NCBI GenBank assembly: GCA_016858145.1 | Contig: JAEHOE010000090.1 | Coordinates: 434,001 to 498,000, forward strand | From: Edaphochlamys debaryana | Taxonomy: Eukaryota > Chlorophyta > Chlorophyceae > Chlamydomonadales | DNA length: 64,000 nt | Reading direction: 5' to 3' | Part shown: positions 1-62,249 of the stretch, piece by piece | Position numbering within the stretch: position 1 is the first letter of the stretch | Layout of the letters: each line of letters starts with the position of its first letter | Made by a program: the position numbers and the translations under genes | Notes under the pieces: model-generated | What the model was told of the DNA's origin: nothing | Databases searched by the model: none | The model's input: only the letters and a program-made list of their open reading frames with translations

Positions 1-129
1 CTCGGCGGCCTGGCCCCGTGCGCGTGAAGTACCTTTCGAGCCGGGCCCAGGCCAGGCCCTGGTCGGGTCCTGGCGGGGACCAAGTCGGTCCGTAACACCT
101 GTGAGCCCCCCTCCCCCTCCCCCCCCCAG

Positions 130-9295
<9,166 letters not shown>

Positions 9296-13227: not shown

Positions 13228-13315
13228 ATGGACAGAATGCTCCGCCGGCGGGAGAGGCTCCTGCTCTTGCTGGCAGCCTTCCTGCTCGCAGCGAGCGTAG
13301 AAGGCCAAGTGCGCT
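13228..13315 (+). other. Signal peptide exon of the giant protein
   Basis: The first exon encodes 29 residues. After MDR, a second Met (13237) starts a textbook signal peptide: a basic n-region (LRRRER), a hydrophobic core of Leu/Ala/Phe, and a small-residue cleavage region (AASVEG). Either Met would work; the second gives the better n-region. The SRCR1 sequence begins right after it, so no start further upstream is needed. Confidence 0.85.
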
Positions 13316-16300
13316 GTAAGCGAACATGCCTTGCCAGTTTTGTGGCTCCCCCGACACCCTACGCATGCTCATGCGCCTGACGCTGTCGGCCACCGCCCGC
13401 AGATAACCTCACCCTTGTGAACGACCATTCCTCGCGGTTTGAGGGTAGGGTTGATGCCACCCCAAGCACGGGAGGCACGACGATCGGTATTTGCAGGTGA
13501 GGCAACTTTATTTCAAAACCTTCCAGCAACCGAGAGATATTTGTGAGCGAGCGAGGGGCACGCGTCTCAATGGCTTGCCACAAGCCACTGTGGACCGAAG
13601 TCTACCCTCCAAGCGGCTGAGTAATGTCACAAGGCGTGGGTCCGCTGCGCCGCGCCGCGCCGCGATGGCGGGGGCCGGGCGGGGATTCGGCCCGCGGTTC
13701 GTGTCGCGTGTCGATCGGCCCTGCCCACACGGAGTCATCCGCACCGCCACATGCTATAGCACCCCAGCCAGCCATGGTCCATTGTCAATATACATGGGCT
13801 GCGTGTCCGTCGTCCGCTCTCCATCAACGCGGTGCGAGTTCGCGTGCTTTGCTTCCCAACTTCCGCGCACTGTGGGAACGAATGTACATTAATGCGTTGT
13901 TATCAGGCTTATTAGCAGTGGGCGTGCGTGTGGGTAAGGTCGCGCGGCGATGTTCTCGGTGTGAGCAATGTACATGCGCTTGGTCGGCCACGGTTCGGCC
14001 ACCACCACTGGCACTCGTGAACTCGGGCTCAGACAGCCGAAGGTGCTGGCTAAAGCCTGCCCCCTCCCCTGCTCCCCCTCCCCAGTCCCCTCACCCGTAT
14101 GTATGACGGCCCCAGCTAGCTCCGTCCCTGTCCTGGCCTGCCCCCCGCCCCATACGCACGTAACGACGGCCTCGATAACCCCGACGCCAAGCCTCGTCCC
14201 GAGTGCCGGGTCTTCCCCCAACCCCTCGGTTCCTCTCCCCTCTCCCATTACCCCTGCCCCTTGACCCCGCCCCCTCGCTGCCCTCTCCCCTCTCCCGTTG
14301 TCGCTGCCCCTGCCCCTTGTTCCCCCCCTCCCCAGTGACGGCTTCGACGACCGCGACGCCCTGGTCATCTGCCGCCAGCTGGGACTGCCCACCGCACGTG
14401 AGCAGAGGCCCGAGGCCCGAGGCCCGAGGGGCAGGGGGCGGGGGGCGGGGAAAGAGGGGCGGGGACGAGGGCGGGGGCCAGCGCCGTGCCGGGGCTGGCA
14501 TGGTGTCCGCTGACGCGTTAACTGCCTACCGGGGTTCAAACCCTGCCAGCGTTCTCCTGTACTATATCGCTAGCGGAGCCCGAATTCCTCCCTGCTGCCG
14601 TCCAATCGTGCCATGACCGTCAACCGGTTCCGCCCTCGACGCCCCTTCTCCCTGCCCTCCCTGCCCCCGCTATGCCCCTCCCACCCCCCAACCCCCCACC
14701 CCCAAAGGCGCCTCGGCCGTGTACCAGGCGTGGCAGCAGTACCGCATCGCCTCGTGGACCGACATCGCGAGCTCGCTCACCAACGCGCAGCTGCTGGTGC
14801 GGAGGGGGTGGGCGGAAGGGGCTGTGGGGCCGCGGATGGCAGGGGCGGCAGGAGCACTGAGGCGCGGGGGCTGCAGGGCCGCACCTTGACCTCGGTAACC
14901 CCCACCCCGCCGCCTCCTCCCCGCCGCCTCCTCCCTCCCCGCCCAGGCTGCCCTGGTCTCTGAGCCGCCCGTCTTCCTGACGAAGCTGGCCTGCAAGGTG
15001 GGTGGGCAGGCCCAGGGCAGGCCCCGTGCGGGCCCAAGGGAGGCCCAGGGGCCCAAGGGAGGCCCAGGGGTCCAAGGGAGGCCCCGGGGCCCAGGGCGTG
15101 GCCCAGGGGAGGTTCAGGGGCCCAGTCCCAGGGGAGGCCCAAGGCAGGCCCCAACAGCCGCCGTGGACCCTCCTGCCGCCGCGCTGCGTCCACCTGCCGG
15201 GACGATGGGACCCCCGGGCGCCCTGGCGCCCCACGCTGCCTGACGCCGCTCGACATTGAACCGCTGCCAGCGTGCGCCTTGCGTGGCCCCCACCCCCGCC
15301 TGTGCCTCGTTAAGATGCTCTCGTAGTGACTCCCGCGATTCCTGTTTGGTTGCAGGGCACTGAGGCTTCCATCAACGACTGCGACCGAGTGATCCTCAAC
15401 TCGGGCAGCGCGCTGGCGGCGGGGTGCAACAACGCCCTGAGCGTGGGCGTCAAGTGCTTCGAGAGTGCGGCCGGGCAGGGGGGATGAGGCTTGGCCATAC
15501 AACCTTTTGCCTGTGGGGTTGGGGCCCTTGGGAGACGGAGGTTCGCTTGCGTGTACCTGCAGCAGGGGCTGGGGGATGAAATTGTAGTTTTCCGAGGGTG
15601 AGAGCCGAAGGCACATGCTTCATTCATGCCTGGCAACTACGGGGCCCCCTTCTGTTGTGTGACCCAACCCGTTTCCACCCACCCAGAGGACAACACGCTG
15701 CGCCTCATGACCTCCTCGGCGGCCCTCAACTCCACTTCTGGGACCCTGTCCGCGGGAAGGCTGGAGATCTGGCTGAACTCGGGGTGAGCTTGAGAGGGAG
15801 GGAGGTTGCTGCGCATGCCAACTGGATTTGGCTGTTCTTAAATTCCAGTCGCTTACATGCCGGACACCGGGGCCCATGACCATGCACTGACCTGCTGCGC
15901 ACCCCCCCCCTCCTCGCCCCTGTCCGCAGCTGGGGCCTGGTCGGCGCCGCCGGCTTCGACGCTCTGGACGCCCGACTGGCCTGCCGCGATATGGAACTGC
16001 CGTTCGCAGGTGGGGTCGATGGGTTTGCTTGGTGACAGCTGGGGTCCGCGCCCGTCCGTACGCGCTCCACGGTTTTCCTTGCGTGCTTGTTGACGCGGAG
16101 GCAAGGCGATTGGCATCACGCAGGACCGAGCAATTGGCAAGGGGAAGGGGCCCCGCAATACTATGCGTCTCCGTCCTTTGGGGCTGAAGCAAGCTCCTCG
16201 CTCGTCTCGCCCTTCCGCGCTCTGCAGGCGCCGTCATTGTGCCCAACGCTCAGGCAGTGTTCGGTGCCGCCCCGGCCTCCACCCCCCTGCTGGTGGACAA

Positions 16301-19300
16301 TGTCGAGTGAGTGCACTCAGGCCAACACCAACACCTGCTTAGACATGCACTGTCTAGGAGCGTCGAGGCCGTGGGCTGGGGCAAACGGGCAGCCGGCAGG
16401 GGCCCGCCGCATCCAGCGCATTGGGCGCTGTGATCAATCGCGTGGTCCAATGCCCTTCCTTTCTTACCTCTCCCCGCCTGCAGATGCACGGCCGAATATG
16501 AGTACATGGGTACCTGCCCCCGCAACGGCGCCCCCAAGTGAGACCTGGAGGGGCCAGGGCTCGAGGGGCCAGGGGGAAGCGGTGAAGAAGCTGGAGGTCC
16601 GGGAGCCGGGTGGGGGCAGAAGGGGGCGGGGCCTCAAGGGGCGGTCGGCGGTGGCCGCCCAGCTTTATGACCAAGGATTGGTTGATTTCAGCTGGATACG
16701 GATGTGGGTATGGGTGGTGGGGTGGTGGGGTGGTGGGGTGGTGGGGTGGTGGGGTGGTGGGGTGGTGGGGTGGTGGGGTGGTGGGGTGGTGGGGTGGTGG
16801 GGTGGTGGGGTGGTGGGGTGGTGGGGTGGTGGGGTGGTGGGGTGGTGGGGTGGTGGGGTGGTGGGATGGTGGGGTGGTTGGGTGGTGTTGGGGTGCGGTT
16901 CCATCACCGCATCGCATGTCATAAGCCTTGGGTGGCGGAACAAGCCGCGGCTTGTGTGCATCCTGCCACTTTCTCGGGCTGGCCGCTCCTGAGCTGCCGG
17001 GCGCCTGCGCGTGTTGTGACCCCGCCATCGCTCGCCCTCGTCGTCCCCGCGGCCCCCAGGCCGGGTCCCTTCGTGGGCCTGCGCTGCCAGCCCGAGGCCT
17101 ACGCCGTGCGCCTGGTGGATGGCCCGCACCCCTCGGAGGGCAGGCTGGGTGAGTCAACAAGGCCCAGAGCGTCGTGACAAGTAGCACGTCTGGGCCTGGG
17201 GCGCTCCGCCCGGATGCATCACCGGTCCCTATCTCCCAGGCTTCTCGTCCGTGCTTCTTTGTCTTCAAACCCCACACCTTTAATCTGCCCTCGACGTGCC
17301 CTGGATCCACCCGCAGAGGCATTCGTCGGGGGGCGTTGGGGCACTGTCTGCAACGTCGATTTCGATATTTCGGTGAGCGCCCAGAGCAACCCGCCCATAA
17401 CTAGGTAGTTACCGTAGCCAAGCCATCAAGCAACTCGTGTCCGCCGACACCCGTTGACCGTAGGTGCTCAGTTAAATCACCGCCGCCCGCCCCGCTTGCT
17501 GTGAAACCCCCTTGCGTCCTTCACCCAGGTGGTCTACGCCGTGTGTACGCAAATTGGCTTCAGCACCCAGGAGCAGTGGGGTAAGATGGCTTTTGACCGC
17601 CGGGGCCCACAGGGGAGCGCTCTGGGGGCAAGGCACAGCCGCCCCCACACCGAAGCCGTATGGCCGGTCCCTGCGGGGCTAACCGTTGGCCCTTCAGCGT
17701 TCCCGCGCACTGAGTAGAGACAGCTCTGGGGTCTCTGACTGGCTCCCGGCCGAGGCATAACGGGTGTTTGCGGGGCCCAAATGCTCTGGGGAGTTATCCT
17801 CGCTCGCTGCCCTCGCCTACTCCACCCCATCCCACAGGCCCCTCCTTCCGGACCTACACCGGGTCCTCACCTCGCCCCCCATCTTCCCCCGTGCTCTTCC
17901 GAGTGCGACGGTGCTCAGATAAAGCGTACCATCTGCTCGACTGGTGAGGTTTTTGTGCGTAGCGGTGGCATGTGGCGGTGGCGTCAGACGTGTGGTGGTT
18001 AAGCCCTGCCTGTAAGCACGGTACTGCTAACACTTCCTGGTTCATTACCGCTCATGCTGCATTGGCTTGCGCAACCGGTGTGATCCCAAGCTCGAACGTG
18101 GCGTGCACCTTTGCCCCCGCAACGCCGCCCCCAGCTCTGAGAAGAACACCACCTTCAACGGCGCGTGCTCGGCATCGACCGATGTATACGTCAAGTGCTA
18201 CGCCTCGCCACCTGTGACGACTACGACCGAGCCGCCGCAGTCGCTGTGCGTTGACCTTTGGTCTTCCAACGCACGTGAGAGAGGGGTGGGGGGAAGGTGG
18301 CGCGGCTCAAAGTCGTCGAGATGAGCCAGGTTGTGGCGCAGCGGCACCCCGGCTGCTGCGCCAGCACAGCTCTGCCCTGTCTGACCCATTGTACGTACGT
18401 CCCGCGCTCACCCTACCCACGCAGGCATCACTCCCAAGCCCGGGAGCACCACGATGCTGGTCGGAGAGATCGATGACCCCTCCGTGGGAGAGCGGGCGCA
18501 GGTGGGGGTGGGGTTGTCCACGTTAGCGTCAGCCTTCAAGGACCCGGCTGGCGCTCACAACGCCCTTCGCCCGCACGCGCACGCTTCCGCAACCTTCACT
18601 CAAGCCTGATGCCGTCCCTAAGCTCCTACGCTCCCTCAGCTCTTCCGCGCTCTGCGTCCCTCGCTCTGCGCCGCGTTTTCCGTGCTGCTCCACATCAGCG
18701 GGGCTTGACCCGGCCCTTACCTGCCCCCGTCCATCAACGTTCCCTGCCCCTTGCACGCCCAGGGGCCAACCTCCCAGCGCTCCTCATCCCCCAGCCCTTC
18801 ACATTCCTGCCCTCACCTTGCCTCCGCGCAGGACGTGCTCCTCCTGTCGTACGAGGCCGATGGGACCCTGCTCGGCCACGCAGCATTCGGTCGCCCCTGG
18901 ACCTCCGTCTTCGCCGCAGAGGTAAGGGCACTGAGGCAGGCTTAGAGGCGGGCCTCGGGCCCTGGTTGGGCCCTGGTTGGGCCCGAAATGGGCCCTGGTT
19001 CGGCCCATGAGGGCGGCTATCTAGCACGGGCGGACCCTGTGCCAAATGACAGGGTGGGCCTGGCGCACAGGGCATGGATCCAGGTCAACGCGCCAAACAT
19101 CATACGGCTTGCCTCCCTCTGAACCACGCAACTGCACTTGTGCTCTGCACTCAACCTCAACAAGCCACACAACTCTTCAACGCTTCTCCCTTGCAGATGG
19201 ACTACGCCTGGGGCCCCATCCCCAAGCCCGGCGCGCTGCTGCTTGCCGACATGACGGGCGACGGCCGCGACGACCTGGTGGTGGTCACGGAGCTGGGCGT

Positions 19301-22300
19301 GCGGGTGAGGGGGAAGGGGCGGGGTTTCGGGGCGGTGTGTTGGGTACGTAGTCGCTTTGGTCGGGGTTCGCGGGAGTCGGGGAGGCGATGGCCGGGGGTT
19401 GTCGGCGACGTACGTAACCGTGTGTGACTGGAATCCGGTTGCTTTCCACACCAGCTAAATCGCGAAATGGTCTTTCGGTATTCTGGAATCGTTTGCTCAT
19501 AGATCAAACGTTGGCGCGCAAACCAGTTATGTTCGGCGTTCGCCTCTCACCGGCTTACGGTGTGTAGCACGTTTGCAAAATTATGGCCAACATAATGGGC
19601 TAGCCGTGTCGGAAGCCGGGGCGTTCACAGAAGGTATCGCGACTACTTTCGCCCTGCTTTAGCCAGCCCTCAGCGAACGCACGGCTTTGGCGCTGCTTGC
19701 ACACAAACGTGAACACCAAAGGCATGGTACGCTTCTGCGCCTCGGCGTACGCGTGCCGATATCCCCCGGCCCGCCCTTGGCGCCCTCGCGGCTCCCGCGC
19801 GCTTCGGCAATCATCACTCGCTAGTCGCCCTCACTGCCCATCCCACGTGCTGCTTCTAATTCTCTCCGCCTCCTTCCCCTTGCTACGCCCGAACTCTGTC
19901 TCCCTGTCGCCCTCAGGTCTCCGTTGCCAGCGGCGCCCGCTCCTTCGCCGACATGACCATGTGGCTGGACCTGTCTGAGACGCCGCTGCGCATCGACACG
20001 ACCAACACCACCACCAGGGCCTATCTGTGAGTGGCGGGAAGGCGGGGTTCTAACCACTGCCTGTGCCAGGCTCCCTGCCGCCTGCTCGTAACCTGGGCCA
20101 TGGCGGCAGCGCAACCACGGCGTGTCCTCGTCCCTCTTCTTCCTCGGTGACTCGCTCACCGCTTGGCGCCCCCACACTGCCCTTACGCCCTCCCCGCCAG
20201 GTTCATGGATACCACCGGCGACCAGTCTGCGGACATGGTGGGTGCATGGGCTGCTGCGGTGCCGATCCATGCGCGTGTGCAAGGCTTGGGACCGGGTCCG
20301 CTGGGCTTGCCCACAGACTTCATTCGGATCAGCCTTGCCCGGCTTTCCACCCCTTGCCCCTTTTGTCAGGTGTTTTTCGATCGGCAGACCATGCGCCTGG
20401 CGTACTACCCCTCGGACCGCAAGGGCGCACTTGTGGACGGTGAGGGCTGCAGTGGGCGGGGACAAAGATGTGCGTTGCCTCTACCTGGCTTCACGACTTG
20501 ACACTCCCATTCTCCCTGTTCGCTGTGCCCCTTTTTTTATCACGCCCAGACACGGATGGAGGTGAGCGCATGCACCGCATGCCAGGGGGGGGGGCGTAGT
20601 AACTCAAGGCGTATACGATTAGGCTCTGGTCACGGCTTGCATCTCTGTCCTTCCTTCAGCGCCCCGTGCCCTTTGAACCTATGCTTACTTTCCCAGATGG
20701 CATTACCTGGTTCGAGCTAACCAAGATCTCGGCGAGGTGAGTTCGTTGGGCTGGACTGGACTGGACTTCGTCTTCTGGACTTCTGCTAGTGATGAAGACC
20801 TCAGTTGCCCTCTCTTCCCTCAGCACTGGGGACTGATCCCGCCCTGAAATGAATGTCTCTGAACACAACCTCGCTCCCTCAGGTGCGCCTCCCTGGGCGA
20901 GGACTGCTTCTTCATTGCCACCGACGCCAACGGCGATGGACTGGCGGACCCGGTGCTGGTGAGCCCTGCCTTGGGTGTGGGGTACGGGAGGGTAGGGGGT
21001 TGAGGGCGCCTTTGGGACGTGCGTGGTGCTCGACATGGCCCCTGACGCTTCCCGGAGGGAGTAGCCGGAACAGGGCAGTGTGTGTCACATACCGTGCCGT
21101 GCTTCGTTGAAGCGGCGATTGAGGCCCTTCCTCTCTTGCCCCAGGTCTACCTGGACCGCCTGACCGCCGAGCACGAGGTCTACCTCACCTTCGTGGCCAC
21201 CTCCCCGCCCAGCCCCCTCTCCTGGTACCTGGCAGCGCCGGCGGTCTTCCCCCGCGGCTCATGCACCTCGTAAGCGTTACGCACGGAGGATATAAGAGGA
21301 TATCAAGCAAAGGCCCTTTGCGATGGCGCATGCTTGGCTTGATAGTCATGCACACTTCTTAGCTCCCGCGCCCCACGGCACCCCACCTGTGTACCCCCTC
21401 AACTAATGCCTTCTTTCCCGAACCCTCCCAAACGTGCAGCCCTTGGGCGGTGGTGATGGGCGACTTCGTCGGACCCACTGGCTCCGTGGACGACTCCACG
21501 GCCGGCTCCGTGGGGCCCCAGGTGGCGTGCCTGTCGTCCTACGACGCACGTGTCTACGTGGCCGGCCTGGGCGCGTGGGGCCATGTGCCGGGGCAGCCCA
21601 CGCGGGTGCACGTGGCGGACGTCAAGTGAGGAATGGGGCAGGGGCTGGGGTCCATAGGGGTGTTCACTCTTCCAACACGGGGCAGGGAGCAGGGTGACTC
21701 GAGATTCGCATCCGGCAGCGCACTCCGTGCTACCACTCGTTCCGCTCAGTGTGGCTGACCCTGCCCCCCCTCACCCTCGCACCTACCTTCCAGCCTGGAC
21801 GGCCGCGCCGACCTGATCGTGTTCACCGAGCTGGGCTCCTACTACATGCTGTCGACCGGCTCGAACTTCGAGGCCCCCGTGTCAACCGCCCAGTACGCCG
21901 CCACCGCCTCCGTCAGCATGCCGGTGCAGGCCATCTCTGCGCTGGGAGAGACCGACCAGAGTGGGAGTGGATGGGGACCAGTGGTCTGCTTGGATATAGC
22001 CAGCCGGCTACGCTAGTGGCTTGGCGGGGGGCATGCACGTGTGGGTGGGTGGCCCATCTGCGGTGGGTACATTGTATGAGGGATAGCTTGTACCGCAACC
22101 CTGTTCCCCTTCCTCCGCTGCCCCAGCCGCCGCCACGGTGATCGCTTCTGCGGAGGCCGTCATCGCCGCCCCCGTGGAGCTGCGCTGCTCCTCGCCCCGC
22201 CGTGTGGTGGCCTACTTTGCCAACCGCCGGCCCGACCGCTCGGGCGTGTGCGACGGTGTCACGGAGCCATTCAGCACTGACCCCTTGTCACGCGCAGCGG

Positions 22301-55300: not shown

Positions 55301-58300
55301 TTTCTCAACCTCGGAACTCAGCGAGTAGGTGCTGAGCTGCACCATACCTGAAATTAGAATGCGCGTACATAATCCATGGTCTAAGTTGGGGTGCATACAC
55401 GCACGTGCTTGCAGTCCACGGCAGGTTATCATTATAAATCGTGTATTCGACTGTTGACCTTGAACACGTATCAATACTTGTCCTCGCCTGTGTCGCATGT
55501 GCAGCCCCCGGCAGGTTGGAGGTCTGTCTGACTAGCCTCATACACACCCTCCCCCTTAACACACGCCCCCCGCTGGGGGCATCTCATTACTCTTATTATT
55601 ACCTGCTTGCAGCCCAAGAGGGCGAGGGAGGGGAGGGAGGGAGGGGAGGGCAGCACGCAGGCGCGAGGCAGCGAGGGCGAGGGCCTGAGCGAGGGCGAGG
55701 GCTGAGCTCCGGCGGGGCGGCTGTGGCTGGGCGGCTGCGGCTGCGTGGCCCTGCCATGCCCATCCACAGCCGCCTACGCTCCAACAGTGCGTGATCAAGA
55801 CGGGACCACCTAGACCCCCAATGCAAGCTTGCTGCCGCGATGGCGATGAGGAGCAGCCGCGCTGATGCGGAGGCCCCACGCCGTGCACTGAGTGTCACTC
55901 GTGTAGGCTCCATGCCACGGAGCAGGGGAACGGCACTTGTCCTGCTAGCCCCGCATCTACTTGTAACCTTGCCTACCTGTCCTGCATGTGCAGCCCCCGG
56001 CAGGTGGGGAACATGTCTGACATGATCCTTGCGCCAACCTTTGCAATCATGTGAGTGAAAGTCGCAAGCTAGACAGTGCACTATGAAGTATAGGATTTCA
56101 AGGAAAACCTGTGTTTTTTTTCAGGTTTATCCTCTCGGATAAGCTTGAGCTCAACTCGACCACATGCCGGCCCACGGCCACGATGGGCATCCCCAGCTGG
56201 GACCTGCGTAAAGACATGCACGGAACAGCCTGGCACAGGTGCTGTTGAGGCGCACGACAGCAGTCACAAGGGTTCGATGTTCGTCCTGGGCCGTCCATGT
56301 GTGCGTGACGCAGTCCTGCCCTTAATTTGATGCAGTGTCTGGCATATCAAGAACATCTTGCAGATAGATCTTGATGTCCAACTTCAAAAAGAGCTAGCAA
56401 AGCCAGCCCTGCAGCAAGACAAGGCTATTATAAACCAGCTGCAACAGGTGGGTGTGATGGAACCTCGCTCTTGTAGACGGATCCACGAGGCTCCACGGGA
56501 ACCTTCTGGCAGACGGATCTCTTTGCGTGCGCCAGGGCATCAAAGGATGGGCAGAAATCATCAAGACATACGAGGCGCTCAATGAGCTGTCCAAGGTAAG
56601 CGAGGCATCACCTCCTAAATACGCTTGCGCGGTAGGTTGCTGACACTCATTGGTTGCTGCTGCAGACTCAGGACGAGGCATTGCCAGGATACACGGTGGG
56701 GAAGTCGCAAGTCCCCGACCCTCAATCCAGATCTACTGTAATTAGGTCACTGACCAGGCCCGAGCTTTCTGCGCCTGCAGCCGGGGCAGCAGGACCTGAA
56801 CGCCCTGGTGCAGGCATCAATTGAAGGGGCGTGGCATGACACACTGGATAAGAGCCCGGAGAGGTATGTGGTGCCCTAAGCTACTTGTACATCTGCTGCA
56901 TGAGAGTCTACCAATCTCATGATTAATTCGAACCCTCTCCAGGAACGCTGAAGCTTACGAAGGCAGGCTACCCTCAGGAGAGTGGCTTGAAAACACACCG
57001 GTCTGGCGACAGGTCGGTGCGATAGACGGTCGGTGCTAGATCATCATGATTGTTCCTCATGACGTCTGCCACCCCAACTGTGCCGGCGCCCGTGGTTCCT
57101 GCCCATAGGGCTATTTCGAGGGACCCGAGAAGCTCCAGTCTCTGATGTTGAAGACTCAGGGCTACATGGATGCCAGCAGCGCAAAACAAACTAACCTTGC
57201 AGCAAACCCAGGAACCGTTGCGACCGCTGGCGGCGTGGTTGCCGGCAAACAGCTTGACGCCCTAGGCTCGGCGTATGACTTGGACTTCAGCACATTCCAG
57301 TTCAGTGGAGGTAGGCCTGTGCATTGTAGCGTTGGAACTGCATCTTGCTGTGAAGCTGCATGCACGTGTGCGCTGAGCTGTTGCGAGCTGATCTTTCTAC
57401 TCCGCAGGTGGCTCCACCTACTCATACTCTTTCACCACCTCCTCCACGCTGAGTACAACTATCCAATTCTCGATCTCCACTGAGGTGCGGTGGGCCAGGA
57501 CGGTGCAAATGTAGCGCAGCACTGCAAGACATAAAATCCCTCGTGCTGCCCGACATAACCATCCACCAGAATTTCTACGGGACGCATGGGAGCAACGAAG
57601 CTACCTTCCCATTGTTTCATGCGTCCGTGGAGAAAGAAAACACGTAGGTGCCGCTATGTGCACAGCACCACATACCCTGCTGCTCTACCTCTCCTTTTTT
57701 CTCCACCTGCCGCTCCCTTCCCTCCTCTCCCCGCTTCCAGATATGGCTTCGAATTGGGTACGGGGGCCACAGGGACACGGGGACACACGGATACGGGGAC
57801 ACGGGGACACACGGACACGGGGACACAGAGACACGAGGGCAGGGACACAAGGACAGGGACAAGGGTGGGAATGGGTGGGGCTGGGTGGGCCCGTGCTCCT
57901 GGTCCTTAATGTCCTTAATGTCCCTTTCCCTGATACAGAGTTTTCGAGCGAGAGGCTGCAAGAGACGGCCCGCACAAGGACCGTGTCTGTTACTTTTGGG
58001 TAGGTGCATGCACCGGGCAAGGGCGGTAGATGCTATGCCGCACGGCTGTCCCTGACGTGGGTCTGCGCCAAACTCACAGGGACCAAAACCTGGGTGACCA
58101 ATTTTTGGTCAAGGTATGCGCAGACTGCTGTGCGAGGCTGCTGGATGGAGGCGTGGACCAGGGCGCAACAAGCCTACTTACAATGTGTGACGTGTGCGTA
58201 AACCCAGGTCAAGCCCGACCCGGCCTTTGGTACCCCATTCTTCGAGACTCTAGGAGGTGCGTTTCTGCATGTGCTCTCCCATGCCACTAGATCGGTCACC

Positions 58301-61300
58301 CCTCTGCGCTTTGCAACCCTGCCTCGCACAGGCCGCAGCAAGTGCCCACCAGAGCCCAATACGTTAAACCGTGAAAAGGCACGCCTCTTTGTCCTCGGCG
58401 GCCAGAACACAAGGGTGAGCTGAGCCTAATTGTAAGCCTCTAACATCAAGTATCGCTTAATAGTCGAGCAGAGTCCTTAAGTGACATGACAACTGCAGAG
58501 GGACCTCAAGCAAGGAGAGGAGACCTTGTACGATGTTGTCATCGAAAATCAGTCAGAGACCGACGAGATGGTAGGTAATGGCATCCCGGATATAGAGACT
58601 GGGGGCCACTATAGTAGGGAACAGGGACAGACACCAAGAACACAGACAGATCCCAGGGACAGCGTTATGGACACTGACTTCAGGGGCCAGGGCACAGCCC
58701 CTGTCCGAAATGCAGTTAGGAGGCCGACGGTTTCTGATCAGCGCCTTGCACATGCCACAGGTGTTCCTGAGCTTCGGACCTGACACGACGACAAACAATG
58801 CCTCCATTGACCTCAAGATGGCAGGCGACTCGTTTGTCATGGGCGGCTTGTTTGCAACACCAGGTGAGTGGGAAACGGGCATGGTCAAGTCATCTTGCCT
58901 CTGCACGCAATTACAACCTATGCTGTACCTTGATGCACAGGCCCTGCAGGAACACAAACCCGAGCACTTGTTACCGCAAAGTGCGGACCCGCACATACGT
59001 CAGGAAGTGTCGACCTGTACCTAGCGTACGCCTGCCTTGACTGTGAGTTGAATCTACCAGCAGTCTTCTATCCGGGGGGGGGAGAAGGGGGCTCGAAGGG
59101 GGGGCTCGAGGGGTGTGCCCACCAACCCGCAATGCATCACTCGTCTTGCAATACAGGGACTGTTTCAGAGCAGGACCGTGTCAAGCTGACTTTGGAGTGC
59201 TACACTCCCTGTCCACGTGCCGAGTGGGCGCAGGTAGGTGGAAGTTGGGATTAAAATGCACTAATCCGCTGAGGTGCCGGACATACGCGACATGCTTTGT
59301 GGGGCTCCCCCGTGCGCAGGGTTGGCCGGCCGTTCAGCCCATCGTCTACAACGCTACAGATGCGGCACGGAACGCGGTATGAGAGCTAGCGCCATGAGAC
59401 ATCTGCTAACATGCGCTAAGGCTACCCTCACTGTTCCATTTCGCAGACCATTCCGCTGAGGCTCTACAACCCCCGGTACACGATAATGAAATGGAGCAAC
59501 CACACGCGCCTCAAGGGCAACAAAACTCTGGTGCGCTTTCAACCAACATGCATTTATGGGCTACCAGCTCAAAACCGAGTGCACTACTTAACTCAGGGTT
59601 CTTACTCATGCAGATTCAAATGGAGGTTCTAAACCAGGTGTCAGACGGTGGCATCTGGCGGCCGATTCGGTATCCGAATGGCACCACAATAGATTTTGCA
59701 GACCTTGAACAACCGGCCTACGGCTTTGCTACGTACAACTGGGACCCAGTGAGCACGTTCTTCTAGCTCTGCTGCCGAACATATGCAAAGCTGCCATAAC
59801 GCTGTCTCATACCTTGCCTCCGTCACAGCGTTCTACCCTCAACACGGATGGAGAGTACCTCGTTCGGTTCGTGGTAAGGCTTCCATGCCTGATCAGGCAA
59901 AGCCCCTCTTCAACCTAGCTGCAGTGTCGAACCCTGCTCACCGTGCTGCTTTCCGTTCCCAGGTTTACTGCGATGCCGATGTTGGAGGCGGCACCGACAC
60001 TCGTTTTGAGGGCCCAGCAGTTCGGTTTGTGTTGGACCGTGCACCACCAGTTCCAGTGCTCAACACCCTTGCACCGGCTATGGCGTACCTGCCGGGTGCG
60101 TGTGAGGGCTGCTGCTAAGCGACTTCATGCTAAATCCGAATGGCTGGCCTCACGGCATGCCTGCGGCCCCTCTCTATCGTTTGCTTGACCGTCGGTTGCA
60201 GGAGATCCCATTGCCATTACCTTCAATGAGCCCTTGGACGTAAGCACACGCGATGCGATGGGGAATCTCCTGTGTGGATATGTCGCTGACCGTGTGCTGC
60301 TGACTGCCTCGTGCGCAGTGCCGCAAGCCGTTCTCCTTCTTCGTCATGGGGCGCAATGTCAATAGCTCCGCTAGTACCCGCAACTTTACCGATGGCAGAG
60401 GTGGTAAGTCAAAGTGCTGATTATTAGGGCCAGTCGTGGGGCCAGCGGGGTCTGCAGGGTGAGCGTGTACTACAGAGCTAACTGTTCTGAACAAAAGGGC
60501 CATTTATTGATTGTTTGAACCCGCTTGTTGCCTATTGCAGGTGACTTGCTCTCGACGTGTGAGGGCAGAACCATCTCCGTTGCCTGGGACCCCCTCAACC
60601 GTCCCGCTGCGCTAAGTGACAACCAGAACGTCACGCTCCGCCTGTCTAACGTTCAGGACCTGGCAGGCAACGCGCTGCCCCGCACCATCGACCTAAGTTT
60701 TTTCACCGGCGTCCTGAGCCCCAATGTAAGCCCTTGGATCGCGTGAGCTAGCGCATCAGTGCTCCCAGTTGCTCATGCGTTAGGCTTTGCCCTGTTACCT
60801 TGCTTCTCCTGCCTCGCCCCCCGGAACCTCTCCAGCGCACAATCGCTCTGAGGGTGGCTATTAGCGTTCAGCAGACTAGGCGCCGCTTGCTCTTCAAGCA
60901 CGAGATGGAGGAGCTCCCCCCCGCGTTGCGTGCGGCCATGTCAATTGGAGAGGAAGCATTCGGCGCCGAGCTGCTGGGCAAGATCGCCCACAAGCGGCGC
61001 CTGATGGCGGACATCAATACGCTGCTTGCGGGTTGCTTGAGCCCAGAGGACGGAGGCGAGCTCCCCGCAATCCGGTTGGCCAATGCCAATCAGGACAATA
61101 CGGCACGCCTGCTGGTGAGGCGGGTGGGAGGTTGAGCTAATTAGAGCTGGTTGAGAACACTATGCTGACCTGCGGCTCGACTACTCCAATGCAGGTTTTG
61201 GAGTTTGAGACATCGGCGAACACTGCCGGCGACACGTCCTTGGCAGTGGCGGCCCGCTTGTCCCAGACTCTTCACGATGAAACATCCTGCCTGCGCACCA

Positions 61301-61776
61301 AGCTGAAGGAGGGCTCATCCGTGGTCCGGCTTGTCTACGGCATGGACGTAAACCACCAGCTCCGAGCGGGCCTGAGCGAGGAGGACCTGGCCGCGGCCCG
61401 ACGCGCGGCTGCGGAGCGTGCAGCTGGGCTTGGGCTGCCCGACCTGTGGGAGGCGCAGGTCCAGGCCCTGGCTGCTGAGGCGGGTCTGACTGCTGCTGAG
61501 TCGCCTGATCAGGTCCTGCAGCTGGGAGGACAGCAGGCTGGCAGGACTGCTGCTGCCTTGGCGCGGCGCTCGCTGGTGGCTGAGAAGGGCGGTGACGGAA
61601 ACGTGCGTGGCATGTTGCCAAGGGCCCTGGAGGCGCTGAGCCACCCCCACGCAGGGCTCGTGAGCGTGCTGGTGTGCGTTAACGCAGCTGCAGTGCTAGC
61701 AGTGGCCGCGGTTTGGAGGCTGAAGCGCAAGGCCCGCAGGCAGGCTGCGAGCGGCAACATCTCGCCCCGGTCTTAA
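13228..61776 (+). CDS. Giant single-pass membrane protein: SRCR(3)-VCBS-GH18(dead)-CTLD(~16)-Pro rod-VOMI-LRDPPG-Ig-TM
   Basis: I joined 196 exons whose summed length is 23,652 nt (7,883 codons plus TAA); every junction keeps phase and no in-frame stop remains. Exon coordinates are given in the domain entries below. The protein starts with a signal peptide and ends with one transmembrane helix, so nearly all of it should be extracellular. SRCR and C-type lectin domains are ligand-binding modules of animal scavenger and pattern-recognition receptors; both have been reported in Chlamydomonas, but I know of no characterised protein with this architecture. Seven introns use GC donors (22772, 23867, 31488, 33701, 39869, 48172, 50111), and micro-exons of 10, 12, 15 and 17 nt occur. 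Weak joints are 18134/18135, 32295/32347 and 48810/48905; at the last the model could be split into two genes. Function as a giant adhesin or glycan receptor is inference. An upstream non-coding exon is possible. Confidence 0.85.
13304..15464 (+). other. SRCR domain 1
   Basis: Exons: 13228-13315, 13403-13496, 14336-14397, 14708-14796, 14947-14997, 15356-15464. The domain starts VRYNLTLVNDHSSRFEGRV and includes the core DALVICRQLGLP, the C-x9-C motif CKGTEASINDC and the terminal GVKCFE. These match the scavenger-receptor Cys-rich consensus, including the spacing C-x-G-x-E-x(5)-C. The intron after 13496 (839 nt) is C-rich in its second half and empty. Confidence 0.9.
15003..15140. repeat. Tandem GGGAGGCCCAGGGGCCCA-type repeat in an intron
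   Basis: Intron 14998-15355 of the giant gene begins with about six imperfect 18-20-bp units containing gggaggcccagg and ggggcccaag. The units are partly self-complementary (ggcccaggggcc). Confidence 0.7.
15687..17090 (+). other. SRCR domain 2
   Basis: Exons: 15687-15783, 15930-16009, 16228-16306, 16484-16537 and the start of 17060-17148. Visible motifs are LRLM..., GRLEIWLNSGWGLVGAAGFD, ARLACRDMELPFAG, and C-x9-C (CTAEYEYMGTC) followed by FVGLRC. The intron after FAG has the same position and phase (1) as in SRCR1 and SRCR3. The intron 16538-17059 holds the GGTGGTGG array. Confidence 0.88.
16712..16890. repeat. 8-bp GGTGGTGG tandem array
   Basis: About 22 near-perfect copies of an 8-bp unit (GGTGGTGG) sit in intron 16538-17059 between the SRCR2 and SRCR3 exons. 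Only the last two units have point changes (a for g, and ttgg). The GG-tract spacing suits G-quadruplex formation on the coding strand. Confidence 0.95.
17090..18274 (+). other. SRCR domain 3
   Basis: Exons: 17060-17148 (3' part), 17317-17372, 17529-17580, 17838-17943, 18135-18274. Motifs are YAVRLVDG, GRWGTVCNVDFD, AVCTQIGFS, C-x9-C (CSDKAYHLLDC) and DVYVKCY, followed by a Thr/Pro linker (VTTTTEPP). The acceptor at 18135 is inferred from phase and from the Cys spacing. An alternative frame of exon 17838-17943 also gives a C-x-G-like motif (ECDGAQIKRTIC), but it cannot be joined to its neighbours. Confidence 0.82.
18425..21960 (+). other. VCBS/FG-GAP-like repeat region
   Basis: Exons: 18425-18501, 18832-18921, 19197-19304, 19917-20026, 20201-20237, 20370-20439, 20550-20561 (12-nt micro-exon), 20697-20736, 20883-20958, 21145-21269, 21440-21625, 21794-21960. 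Repeated Asp-rich calcium-loop motifs occur: ADMTGDGRDDLVVVTEL, DTTGDQSADM, DDTDGDGITW, ATDANGDGLADPVLV, ADVNLDGRADLIVFTEL. The DxxxDGxxD pattern is typical of FG-GAP/VCBS beta-propeller blades. About 365 residues would allow a whole propeller. The micro-exon supplies DTDG of one calcium loop. Confidence 0.8.
18945..19015. repeat. GGCCCTGGTTGGGCC tandem repeat in an intron
   Basis: Three to four units of ggccctggttgggcc type follow the donor at 18922 in the intron 18922-19196. Each unit is partly palindromic (ggccc...gggcc). Confidence 0.7.
22127..24177 (+). other. GH18 (chitinase-like) domain lacking the catalytic DxxDxDxE motif
   Basis: Exons: 22127-22403, 22576-22771, 22920-23069, 23252-23362, 23476-23569, 23691-23866, 24024-24177. 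A full GH18 TIM barrel can be followed: RVVAYFANRRPDRSG (strand 1), DVTHVIFAS, ALVSVGGEGGDFEF (SxGG strand), FLRANGLQGLELSWPSV (strand 4), ALAVPPYELYLGL, VDMINFK, and the C-terminal YDDPFTVTNKVCFARAHCLG...GVWDVDSD. At strand 4 the family's FDGLDLDWE reads LQGLELSWP (22727-22753): all four catalytic acids are replaced (Q, E, S, P). It should bind rather than cleave glycans, as chi-lectins do. Two introns here use GC donors (22772, 23867). Confidence 0.88.
24298..25211 (+). other. C-type lectin domain 1 (QPD-type)
   Basis: Exons: 24298-24377, 24503-24654, 24784-24857, 24993-25211. Canonical landmarks are TWEDAREHCKALRGDLAAI, VFVWLGGND, YTAWAGGQPDG, GEDCLAA, WFDMGC and LPFVCQ. The QPD tripeptide is the motif linked to galactose specificity in animal CTLDs, and the downstream WFD is close to the WND calcium-site motif. 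Confidence 0.9.
25321..26936 (+). other. C-type lectin domain 2 with a Pro-rich insertion
   Basis: Exons: 25321-25478, 25564-25677, 25957-26079, 26474-26697, 26828-26936. Motifs are AEGQKICRTLGGELPSLTD, YMWIGLRSYGEGE, FWSDGS, NAWEPGEFG and the closing LSCQERAPVVCQ. Between the WEPGE loop and the last Cys pair, exon 26474-26697 inserts a Pro/Ser-rich stretch of about 50 residues beginning with seven prolines. The intron between Cys and GG is phase 0, as in several other CTLDs here. Confidence 0.85.
27017..28320 (+). other. Cys-rich PAN/WSC-like and CP-G modules before the rod
   Basis: Exons: 27017-27038, 27156-27216, 27350-27905, 28069-28721 (5' part). The first ~60 residues have a DCAVQCMLSPRCAYYIFLP pattern like a PAN or WSC domain. 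Two longer segments follow with Cys pairs and a CPRGMIARGVQGATLP...LRLVC module of the CP-x-G...C type seen again after the rod and in the VOMI-like domain. No firm family assignment. Confidence 0.6.
28295..29330 (+). other. Hydroxyproline-rich-type rod (Pro/Ser/Arg repeats)
   Basis: Exons: 28069-28721 (3' part), 28916-29056, 29173-29330. After an APPPALPPPAPK segment and a basic/acidic linker, about 180 residues are built of RPPSP, PPPRPP, PRPPSP and TPPTPP units. Such stretches in volvocine cell-wall proteins (pherophorins, agglutinin shafts) are hydroxylated, O-glycosylated and form stiff polyproline-II rods. The two introns fall inside the rod and keep frame. The rod separates the SRCR/GH18/CTLD1-2 head from the long CTLD array. 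Confidence 0.88.
29435..32295 (+). other. Array of Cys-rich CP-x-G modules, family uncertain
   Basis: Exons: 29435-29727, 29889-29946, 30078-30138, 30252-30457, 30602-30704, 30783-30871, 30973-31166, 31292-31487, 31657-31780, 31877-32295. About 580 residues contain repeating units that begin with Cys-Pro and end in a hydrophobic-x-Cys strand: ACPPGHVISSLTAWV, YSCPGDNVPISEIIF...AFRC, LTCPDRQFVVSIYG...GVVC, TCPGGVAAVTGRLF...VICY, YECPEGSKVVAALAV...IECD. They recall VOMI repeats but are more diverged. The donor after 31487 is GC. The donor at 32296 (gtaatg) was chosen to keep the frame of CTLD3; a GCAAGT at 32278 is in the wrong phase. Confidence 0.65.
32347..33121 (+). other. C-type lectin domain 3 (EPN-type)
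   Basis: Exons: 32347-32417, 32517-32552, 32658-32748, 32826-33010, 33112-33121 (10-nt micro-exon). Motifs are DWGQARRFCQAQ/GGNLISFAN, EVWIGAYRAG, WAYVDGTTFGSW, VGEPNDKREREDC and the final RPLCEI. EPN is the mannose-type sugar-binding motif of animal CTLDs. The micro-exon supplies the last Cys. The Cys/GG junction again carries a phase-0 intron. Confidence 0.85.
33220..33700 (+). other. C-type lectin domain 4, C-terminal half missing
   Basis: Exons: 33220-33337, 33423-33488, 33572-33700. The N-terminal half is normal (QAETFCQRRGGSLASF, SVWTGLSSRR), but the next exon already starts CTLD5, so the loop and closing Cys pair are absent. The join uses a GCAAGT donor at 33701, which is the only one found that keeps phase. 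A missed exon is unlikely because the intron is only 91 nt. Confidence 0.65.
33792..34496 (+). other. C-type lectin domain 5
   Basis: Exons: 33792-33882, 33963-34012, 34100-34345, 34438-34496. Motifs are FEQARAYCQSFSGDLAVLSD, TSWVGLQQLNGSSSWTWVNG, FNIACNG and FGVICS. No EPN/QPD-type motif is seen, so calcium-dependent sugar binding is doubtful. Several NxS/T sites are present. Confidence 0.8.
34578..35232 (+). other. C-type lectin domain 6 (QPN)
   Basis: Exons: 34578-34811, 34902-35083, 35183-35232. Motifs are QQALATCKGLGGILAEI, RWVHVGLQRR, GDWVWGGSG, YSAWAPGQPNGVG, AEACTAL, and CNTLGSFVCE at the end. The QPN tripeptide sits where EPN/QPD occurs in animal CTLDs. Confidence 0.85.
35335..36175 (+). 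other. PAN/Apple-like domain
   Basis: Exons: 35335-35616, 35719-35864, 35949-35993, 36077-36175. The segment GCVSRVDYRFIG...ASACCSSCTLTRGCFSWTHD...ASVCLLYR matches the PAN_4 pattern (Cys-Cys-x-x-Cys, Gly-Cys-aromatic, Cys-x-Leu). PAN domains bind proteins or glycans. The acceptor at 35719 was picked by phase; a closer-looking AG at 35743 gives the wrong frame. Confidence 0.65.
36275..37122 (+). other. C-type lectin domain 7 (EPD)
   Basis: Exons: 36275-36375, 36488-36554, 36626-36805, 36892-37122. Motifs are SAEAMCGLLGGSLVDAS, GFSWGSGVVENRGLWAPGEPD, NCVVYRQ, and PCAYRVSRPMCQ. It has a longer-than-usual middle (TVTVTPGISLVVDN). The intron before 36488 contains a C15-type homopolymer. Confidence 0.8.
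37205..38074 (+). other. C-type lectin domain 8, closing Cys pair not seen
   Basis: Exons: 37205-37289, 37363-37417, 37515-37559, 37660-37744, 37979-38074. Motifs are WPTARVMCKAQ/GGDLAFFDS, STWFGLNDRG and GDFRWAGQPWLPSPTWARW. The chain then runs directly into the VOMI-like domain without the usual final Cys pair, so the domain looks incomplete. Confidence 0.72.
38171..39868 (+). other. VOMI-like (vitelline membrane outer layer I) domain
   Basis: Exons: 38171-38336, 38425-38505, 38598-38703, 38790-38843, 38930-39042, 39152-39288, 39363-39457, 39543-39868. Two units resemble VOMI beta-prism repeats well: FGELASLAACPPGTYVTGIQ...DGLGVINIRMQC, and GNWSRPTMCDTGFFMCGFAV...YDNTAVNSLQIRCC. Between them NSDDFGATSIQLLC closes another. 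The Trp...Cys...Gly-Phe...Asp-Asn-Thr-Ala-x-Asn...Cys pattern is that of animal VMO1. In animals VMO1 is a secreted egg-coat/mucosal protein. The donor after 39868 is GC. Confidence 0.7.
39949..40737 (+). other. C-type lectin domain 9
   Basis: Exons: 39949-39997, 40112-40138 (27 nt), 40242-40392, 40473-40636, 40723-40737 (15-nt micro-exon). Motifs are WALASSWCK/AHSSELASLTD, LSVWFGASNAGS, RYTSGDAVQYSAWG, and the closing FICRR supplied by the micro-exon. A phase-0 intron again follows the first Cys. Confidence 0.8.
40852..41483 (+). other. C-type lectin domain 10
   Basis: Exons: 40852-41134, 41224-41483. Motifs are MTWDSAKGFCEQRGGVLASV, VRIWLGSKFM, GSWSWLDKTEFNYLRYQ, ELCLVWN and CTQIAYPMCQ. 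No EPN/QPD motif is seen. The domain is encoded by only two exons, fewer than its neighbours. Confidence 0.82.
41573..42456 (+). other. Cys-rich linker: VOMI-like unit plus WSC/PAN-like unit
   Basis: Exons: 41573-41753, 41847-42016, 42096-42196, 42308-42456. A CP-G unit (FCPPGTVLTGIQGAIP...SFAGICG) is followed by a segment with CIELCGLDSAR...SGCYCAVAYNGL, which has the Cys-x-Cys spacing of WSC carbohydrate-binding domains. Assignment is tentative. Confidence 0.55.
42549..43159 (+). other. C-type lectin domain 11
   Basis: Exons: 42549-42804, 42880-42938, 43022-43159. Motifs are ADWNAAQRVCTLNGGHLAVL, MGLWLGLFLAQSPQYRWVDG, and CDNMLAFVCE. Spacing and conserved Trp/Cys residues are close to the CTLD consensus. 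Confidence 0.85.
43265..44045 (+). other. C-type lectin domain 12
   Basis: Exons: 43265-43315, 43381-43454, 43553-43696, 43783-43934, 44009-44213 (5' part). Motifs are SWLDAQRICRYE/GQELVWF, LAVGVWTGLSSDAGGRMAW, GGVCGALV, and CDTPLAFVCK. It ends in a short Pro-rich linker ([10 protein letters not shown]) leading to CTLD13. Confidence 0.82.
44100..45984 (+). other. C-type lectin domain 13 (DEP)
   Basis: Exons: 44009-44213 (3' part), 44400-44486, 44902-44962, 45033-45101, 45181-45215, 45289-45360, 45456-45559, 45786-45836, 45932-45984. Motifs are NWTTAERRCAAIGGRLAEF, FWLGYTSDKYKSFWFGLRK, AVAWGPDEP, SECVEG, and VQSCSARNAYMCMV. The 415-nt intron 44487-44901 is C-rich and has no further exon that I can see. 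Confidence 0.78.
46061..46770 (+). other. C-type lectin domain 14
   Basis: Exons: 46061-46112, 46192-46249, 46359-46465, 46550-46880 (5' part). Motifs are MGWSEAAGFCAGNGQ/VLADFSS, INVWVGYQSR, and VCTRLMRPLCR. The C-terminal half is short. Confidence 0.78.
46780..47758 (+). other. C-type lectin domain 15
   Basis: Exons: 46550-46880 (3' part), 46961-46980 (20 nt), 47061-47136, 47231-47328, 47423-47487, 47602-47758. Motifs are SWGRARETCQTLFQ/GDLATFG, TDTWFGMTD, DCAVFRMY, and PCSTARPFLCEY, followed by a Pro-rich linker (APPTPPAPGPIP). Confidence 0.8.
47844..48455 (+). other. C-type lectin domain 16 (last of the array)
   Basis: Exons: 47844-47940, 48018-48171, 48279-48455. Motifs are STWTQ/AQLMCQMLPGAPGSLASL, VGLWVAFGDF, YWTAAALDGSPYGTSW, VLGEPAVCGYLD, and PCSTRLGMLCM. 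The donor at 48172 is GCAAGT. The intron after Gln lies just before the Cys rather than after it. Confidence 0.8.
48568..48810 (+). other. Second VCBS-like unit with a CGDG...ECDEG Cys motif
   Basis: One exon. It starts with EIAELSGDGLPDLVVATN, a calcium-loop repeat like those at 18.8-22 kb, and ends with VCGDGIPSWWQEECDEG, which resembles the CGDG-x(n)-ECDDG Cys-rich repeats (DUF4215-like) of large extracellular proteins. The reading frame stays open to 48893, so the exact exon end is uncertain. I used the gt at 48811 because it joins in phase to 48905. Confidence 0.7.
48905..52873 (+). other. Extracellular beta-rich region, no family recognised
   Basis: Exons: 48905-48999, 49089-49242, 49353-49425, 49560-49742, 49834-49960, 50054-50110, 50183-50338, 50460-50544, 50618-50714, 50796-50966, 51077-51184, 51259-51328, 51454-51501, 51578-51685, 51788-51856, 51951-51991, 52124-52367, 52458-52602, 52692-52873. 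About 740 residues of alternating hydrophobic/polar strands with scattered Cys and Asn-glycosylation sites; typical pieces are YIIVGSGNDTISHYG and FLVVAGIGSYMRLKVVWN. No lectin motifs. The donor at 50111 is GC (CAG|GCAAGC). Confidence 0.65.
50400..50450. repeat. CCCTGT/CCCTGG hexamer array
   Basis: Intron 50339-50459 contains three CCCTGT units followed by about five CCCTGG units, directly upstream of the acceptor at 50459, where it also acts as the pyrimidine-rich tract. Confidence 0.85.
55485..56030 (+). repeat. Decayed second copy of an exon start in intron 55325-55993
   Basis: The exon start at 55994 (tgcagcccccggcaggtggg and on to gtctgac) has a close copy at about 55498-55540, with the acceptor, the Asp-Pro-Arg-Gln-Val-Gly codons and then a TAG stop. 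The copy lacks a usable open frame, so it is a pseudo-exon. The rest of this 669-nt intron is a purine-rich gagggcgaggg stretch (55618-55706) without features. Confidence 0.65.
57771..57865. repeat. GGGACACGG-type minisatellite, related copies at 50991 and 58616
   Basis: Intron 57758-57938 holds about a dozen short units built on gggacacgg/ggacacac. Shorter stretches of the same motif occur in intron 50967-51076 (50991-51038) and intron 58571-58760 (58616-58690), so the motif is dispersed among introns of one gene. Confidence 0.75.
59963..60725 (+). other. Ig-like (SbsA/Big-type) domain
   Basis: Exons: 59963-60095, 60202-60239, 60319-60403, 60541-60725. The sequence PVPVLNTLAPAMAYLPGDPI then AITFNEPLDC and finally LSNVQDLAGNALP fits bacterial-type Ig-like domains (strand pattern ending in DxxGN). 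At 60396-60404 two donors are possible (gtggta or gtaagt); I chose gtaagt, which adds one Gly. Confidence 0.65.
60836..61776 (+). other. Juxtamembrane region, transmembrane helix and cytoplasmic tail
   Basis: Exons: 60836-61114, 61195-61776. A basic stretch (QTRRRLLFKH) and an Ala/Glu/Leu-rich helical region precede the only long hydrophobic segment outside the signal peptide, about 61655-61720 (LVSVLVCVNAAAVLAVAAVW). It is followed by RLKRKARRQ, a positive-inside stop-transfer signal, and ends 10 residues later at TAA (61774-61776). The tail of about 20 residues has no kinase or other signalling domain. Confidence 0.85.
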
Positions 61777-62244: not shown

Positions 62245-62249
62245 TGTAA
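62245..62249 (+). terminator. Putative poly(A) signal TGTAA for the giant gene
   Basis: This is the first TGTAA after the stop at 61776, 469 nt downstream. It fits the volvocine poly(A) signal; the cleavage site would be expected some 10-20 nt further. Confidence 0.45.

Follow-up and report, generated by a model that had tools for sequence, protein, structure and literature searches.

The DNA analysed here, which we call the window, is a stretch of 64,000 nucleotides (contig C90, positions 434,001-498,000) from the 141.9-Mb genome of the green alga Edaphochlamys debaryana. On its + strand lies a single gene, starting at 13,228 and stopping at 61,776, whose product is predicted to be a single-pass surface protein of about 7,700 residues, and is likely to be an adhesive receptor that binds extracellular sugars or proteins. 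We are nearly certain that this is one gene with the architecture listed below. A first-pass annotation had described it with 196 exons and 7,883 residues; we did not reproduce these figures exactly, and our best model gives 203 exons for a protein of 7,665 residues. It had also assigned the product to the membrane of a volvocine-type green alga, with SRCR domains, C-type lectin domains, a dead glycoside hydrolase domain (GH18), Pro-rich parts, one signal peptide at the start, and one transmembrane helix at the end, and we confirmed all of these. Its account lacked the FG-GAP propeller and a C-terminal module that is shared with bacteria. The features are:

13228..61776, + strand: whole gene, guided model (203 exons, 7,665 residues, 22,998 nt coding, 191 GT-AG and 11 GC-AG introns)
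13228..13314 (exon 1 is 13228-13315), + strand: signal peptide, residues 1-29 (sequence, hydropathy 1.7; covered by no homolog)
13405..18201, + strand: three SRCR domains, residues 31-163, 169-289, and 296-376 (Pfam PF00530, three stretches, E = 1.4e-30)
18241..21878, + strand: FG-GAP repeats, a predicted integrin-alpha-like propeller, residues 390-739 (PF13517, E = 3e-8; PF01839, E = 5.6e-7; both above cut-off)
22198..24128, + strand: GH18 domain without the catalytic glutamate, residues 791-1136 (PF00704, E = 1.9e-30; GLELSWP ends at 22753)
24351..26867, + strand: C-type lectin domains 1 and 2, residues 1171-1317 and 1356-1536 (PF00059 and our own hidden Markov model, or HMM; Pro-rich insert in the second)
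28306..29460, + strand: Pro/Ala-rich segment, residues 1852-2043, likely an extended rod (Pro-rich windows)
32241..48599, + strand: array of about 13-14 further C-type lectin domains (our own HMM)
38200..39367, + strand: VOMI domain within the lectin array, residues 3556-3766 (PF03762, E = 1.2e-16, profile positions 5-167 of 167)
48588..48809, + strand: FG-GAP-like motif and weak DUF4215-like Cys motif, spanning a suspected break near 48.8 kb (sequence; PF13948, E = 0.17, below cut-off)
50306..60725, + strand: C-terminal family module (CarboxypepD_reg-like repeat; ILRDPPGD segment, 53399-53562; DxGD segment, 58084-58357; Big_5/Ig-like domains, 60035-60710)
61651..61722, + strand: predicted transmembrane helix, residues 7625-7648 (hydropathy 2.62, the highest in the protein)
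61723..61776, + strand: 17-residue basic tail and stop codon (no signalling domain)

Seven annotated relatives (P0001-P0007) were found, and they support a single gene: one from Chlamydomonas reinhardtii, two from C. incerta, a chimera from C. schloesseri, and three from E. debaryana itself (HYH03_015758, HYH03_015331, and HYH03_017219). The gene was modelled with a self-training exon finder written for this analysis. With parameters trained on the region and no use of homology, the finder gave a single + strand gene of 207 exons and 6,611 residues across 13.2-61.8 kb (score 3,677), which begins late (at 13,950) and skips some GC-AG introns. With the same parameters, the reverse complement gave 8 pieces (best score 112) and the mirrored sequence gave 5 (best score 218), in a comparison that favours the forward strand because the parameters were trained on the forward strand of the same region. 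The guided model used P0001-P0006 as guides, with the true first exon anchored. It had 206 exons until we edited exon 2 by hand, swapping four exons for an evident exon at 13,403-13,496, which left 203. It runs from an ATG at 13,228 to the stop at 61,776, is divisible by three, and has no internal stops. Closed phases had been offered earlier as support for the gene; the phases do close in our guided model, but this is weak evidence because any gene builder enforces it.

Intron sharing with a paralog is a stronger test of a single gene than the strand scores. Residues 2,310-5,948 of the paralog HYH03_015758 (P0004) are encoded on contig C128 by a chain of 80 exact segments, with all 79 junctions resolved. 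The homology-free model has 44 of these 79 introns in common with the paralog in position and phase (within 3 alignment columns; 35 at 0), whereas 1,000 random intron placements averaged 4.8 and never exceeded 13. The guided model has 43 of the 79 in common. Thus, the homology-free finder, the relatives from three Chlamydomonas species, and the paralog's introns all bear out a single + strand gene.

The intron comparison also bears on the site near 48.8 kb where the first-pass annotation flagged a break. If the break were real, two genes would have been fused in silico, with the N-terminal part a lectin protein and the C-terminal part a membrane protein. Indeed, P0001, P0005, and P0007 are without most of the N-terminal part, and P0006, with Sec8 at its start, shows that annotation can fuse genes. 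However, six homologs (P0001, P0002, P0003, P0004, P0005, and P0007) join the last lectin domain to the C-terminal module, and seven junctions of the homology-free model within 48,455-50,338 are common to the paralog (48,455; 48,810; 49,242; 49,425; 49,742; 50,110; and 50,338). Also, the alignments of 6 of the 7 homologs span the site at 36% identity or more. There is no break near 48.8 kb, and we consider a fusion of two genes very improbable.

The exact splicing of the gene model is approximate. The homology-free model (206 introns) and the guided model (202 introns) have 159 identical introns, and therefore about one fifth of the exact boundaries are uncertain. Homologs support 184 of the 203 guided exons at 25% identity or more. 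Residues are conserved at 116 of the 202 junctions, as compared to 53% for random residues, so splicing does not visibly break homology (with a homolog-guided model, this test is not independent). Introns that start with GC make up 11 of the 202, which is above the usual share, and some of them may be model errors. An 8-base repeat, GGGTGGTG, is present in 22 copies at 16712-16887 of the window, within an intron of the gene. TGTAA, which we take to be the Chlamydomonas poly(A) signal, occurs at 62,245, but this is no proof of the 3' end because 28 of the 31 copies in the window lie within the gene.

The GC content of the gene is lower than that of the genome, and a region-trained model was required. 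We rejected a generic gene finder with genome-wide parameters: it split or shortened the gene according to the gene penalty, giving seven + strand pieces overlapping 13-62 kb at a penalty of 0, one model at 13,950-50,192 at a penalty of 3, and 13,950-61,776 at a penalty of 6. Our first homology bonus was replaced too, as it drew introns into the model (8,161 residues). As a positive control, the exon finder recovered the upstream gene, a RAD50-like gene on the + strand with 43 exons and 1,364 residues. It covers window 1-9295, having started 4,991 bases before the window begins, and the first 390 residues of its product are matched by RAD50 structures (2.1e-70).

At the N-terminus of the spliced draft protein, SRCR scores 105.9 bits (Pfam cut-off 26.1); exons within 13228-14997 are without homolog support. 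A six-frame search of the genome (150 of 302 candidates scored) listed at least 125 SRCR exon matches, many of them clustered, on contigs C2, C40, C117, C139, C200, and others, in line with the published expansion of SRCR and C-type lectin (CTL) genes. Among these 125 matches, none lies in the window or on contig C90. We do not count this against the gene because SRCR exons are short and the domain is split; it is the spliced protein that scores well.

Next come the propeller, with 59-62% identity to P0004 over residues 401-800, and the GH18 domain. The catalytic motif of GH18 is DxxDxDxE. The window protein has LQGLELSWP and P0004 has LDGLELSWP, with a proline at the place of the catalytic glutamate in both. 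As GH18 is above the Pfam cut-off and P0004 is named "Chitinase" in UniRef, the protein could be read as a secreted or surface chitinase. Given the proline, this is hardly credible, and the UniRef name is likely misleading. A chitinase-like head that seems to have kept its fold and lost catalysis in two paralogs points instead to glycan binding.

C-type lectin domains follow the GH18 domain. In the draft, Pfam finds Lectin_C in two halves (6.9e-47 and 7.7e-39, in 4 and 3 stretches; 159.1 and 133.2 bits, cut-off 22.6). An HMM built from the lectin domains of this protein set gives 16 matches in the window protein, two of which are apparently parts of one domain (15-16 domains), and 16 in P0004, 14 in P0003, 8 in P0002, 2 in P0001, and 1 each in P0005 and P0007. 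Ca2+-dependent sugar binding by C-type lectins depends on an EPN/QPD-type motif plus WND, and a WND-like WFD stands alongside the EPN/QPD-type motif in the first lectin match only. VOMI-like modules had been proposed in the plural: one is a clear VOMI domain, but two other Cys-rich segments that we checked against Pfam had no match. Elsewhere in the genome, 16 short VOMI matches cluster on one contig (G000:C107:150969-176961) and may be a tandem family.

Within the algal family, the closest relative is P0004, which aligns to the 7,665-residue window protein over 7,090 residues at 41.9% identity (for P0003, 5,579 residues at 40.3%). P0004 is alike in its SRCR, FG-GAP region, dead GH18, lectin matches, VOMI, C-terminal module, and terminal hydrophobic stretch. 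It differs in lying on another contig of the same genome, and its alignment leaves exons 1-5 of the window gene uncovered. C. incerta HXX76_003615 (6,262 residues) and HXX76_014794 (3,936 residues) and C. reinhardtii CHLRE_01g002861v5 (2,722 residues) have the same C-terminal module and chain end, with 14, 8, and 2 lectin matches, but their deposited models have no aligned SRCR/FG-GAP/GH18 head. When the ends of six relatives were compared, P0001-P0005 ended in a hydrophobic stretch and a basic tail and P0006 did not. The deposited model of P0006 (C. schloesseri HYH02_014272) joins a Sec8 N-terminus to the C-terminus of this family, and is probably an annotation chimera. The combination of domains had been thought undescribed, but it is already in the databases as HYH03_015758 (7,810 residues). 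Within the searches made, the full combination is otherwise known only from that record: a protein search that used residues 1-1,400 of P0004 as the query, among 3,654 candidates, gave no further protein between 4.3 and 13.7 thousand residues long (shorter ones were outside the range), and a literature search by the identifiers of four homologs found no paper that names these proteins.

The membrane-near C-terminal module is homologous to proteins that Bacteroidota and allied bacteria secrete. Pfam and NCBIfam name it at its edges only, and the Pfam scores are below the cut-off (Big_5, 20.3 of 23.6 bits; CarboxypepD_reg, E = 0.011). Collinear matches to the algal C-terminus are seen in metagenomic proteins P0008-P0014. 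Among 438 stretches of bacterial genomes that contain the DPPGD pattern, 356 code for a relative. The best 80 of these are mostly from Bacteroidota, with others from Chlorobiota, Calditrichota, KSB1, Neomarinimicrobiota, Latescibacterota, Fibrobacteres, and Krumholzibacteriota. An HMM of 85 bacterial rows matches the window protein at 143.7 bits (E = 3.2e-40 for 1e6 sequences) in four stretches, three of them significant alone, with the mild circularity that the rows were aligned to a profile containing algal sequences. This HMM also finds all 7 algal relatives, and none of 21 decoys (1 reversed and 20 shuffled) at E ≤ 10. The bacterial proteins (P0008-P0014 and L033-L112) have the collinear module with the motifs ILRDPPGD and YGTP-F, and several carry the sorting tail of the type IX secretion system (T9SS), whereas the algal proteins have a membrane helix and SRCR/lectin heads. 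In the Pfam scan, the T9SS tail (PF18962) was absent from the window draft and from P0001, P0005, and P0007.

A tree of 93 modules groups the 8 algal sequences in a single clade (support 1.0, branch 1.27). Such a clade is silent on the direction of transfer, and the module may be shared by transfer or by common ancestry. The predicted structure of the algal module is poor (pLDDT 59) and that of the bacterial module is good (pLDDT 84.2); the bacterial model ends in Ig/FN3-like sandwiches. We dropped the idea of a pore-forming or other known fold: structure searches gave only common Ig/FN3-like sandwiches (residues 341-667) and barely covered residues 1-340. Among solved structures, NOMO2 is the sole molecule that matches by sequence.

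We propose that, given the signal peptide and the C-terminal helix, all but 17 residues of the chain would lie on the outer side of the plasma (or ciliary) membrane, and that the Ig-like stalk and the Pro-rich segments would hold the N-terminal head (SRCR, propeller, GH18, and lectin domains) away from the surface. The GH18 fold, being dead, would bind an N-acetylglucosamine-type glycan and not cut it. The few lectin domains that keep the EPN/QPD-type motif would bind sugars, and most lectin domains would be protein-binding or spacer units. Because there is no signalling tail, the protein would act by adhesion or via a partner. The ligand may belong to the alga itself (its wall or matrix), to another cell, or to bacteria.

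Several points weigh against this proposal. First, 19 of the 203 exons are without homolog support, the support for the remaining exons is not independent (P0001-P0006 guided the model), and some exons probably keep bits of intron. Second, single-pass topology is only a prediction because three internal stretches (residues 1768-1788, 2285-2312, and 2473-2491) exceed the hydropathy threshold of 1.6, at up to 1.95. Finally, the EPN/QPD-type sugar motif is present in 4 of the 16 lectin matches and absent from the other 12.

The loss of the sugar motif from most lectin matches also favours the main rival to an adhesive receptor, which is a purely structural role. The protein would be part of the cell wall, the matrix, or the ciliary coat, and its modules would hold a lattice, with nothing foreign recognised. 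The Pro-rich segments fit such a role. So does the available text of two papers, in which SRCR genes are co-regulated with wall genes and rise together with wall-remodelling genes (PMC8895990), and in which MST3, a giant lectin-domain protein, is the core of a ciliary filament (PMC11015965). However, the window gene and P0001-P0005 have a predicted transmembrane helix and tail, and the GH18 cleft is retained, as are a few lectin sites. We regard a purely structural role as possible but doubtful. Another alternative is a mating adhesin. The Chlamydomonas sexual agglutinins are mating adhesins, and the window protein is a giant Pro-rich surface protein from a sexual lineage; mating was among the roles proposed by the first-pass annotation, next to wall assembly and the recognition of prey or bacteria. 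We consider a mating adhesin improbable.

If the protein is an adhesive receptor, a more specific picture can be drawn. Unicellular volvocine algae would have built a family of giant receptors that combine an animal-like SRCR/propeller/chitin-lectin/C-type-lectin head with a membrane stalk that is shared with Bacteroidota-type secreted adhesins, probably after gene transfer. The receptors would recognise and hold bacteria or other cells, as an innate-immune-like surface system on a partly bacterial frame. This picture is tentative and rather unlikely to hold as a whole. The gene does show that members of the algal SRCR/lectin group can be about 7,700 residues long, and the C-terminal module links green-algal surface proteins with Bacteroidota-type secreted proteins. 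The ligands of algal "immune-like" domains become addressable on defined modules.

It is useful to compare the window protein to known systems. Animal chitinase-like lectins such as YKL-40 have a GH18 fold without the catalytic glutamate, as the window protein does, but they are small and secreted and have no SRCR or lectin array. The pairing of SRCR and C-type lectin domains had been called an animal hallmark, but it is not confined to animals: the available text of two papers credits to Wheeler et al. 2008 more than 30 SRCR and/or CTL genes (PMC8226300) and more than 20 SRCR proteins that also have lectin and hydroxyproline-rich parts (PMC6704257) in C. reinhardtii. The former also reports an SRCR/CTL expansion in E. 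debaryana, with a 16-gene orthogroup. These proteins are like the window protein in having both domains, Pro-rich parts, and a place at the surface; in the available text of both papers, no description of them includes GH18, VOMI, or the bacterial-type module. Another giant algal surface protein (8,572 residues) is MST3, from the mastigoneme of Chlamydomonas (PMC11015965), with C-type lectin and Pro-rich parts. It differs in having 42 long poly-Pro repeats and a PKD2-like channel domain, whereas the window protein ends in one predicted helix: we saw one strong hydrophobic stretch and no PKD2-like multi-helix C-terminal domain there, and the Pfam scan gave no PKD channel family. The pairing of SRCR and C-type lectin domains in algae was already known, and the window gene and its paralog add to it a dead GH18, a VOMI domain, and a bacterial-type module in one chain.
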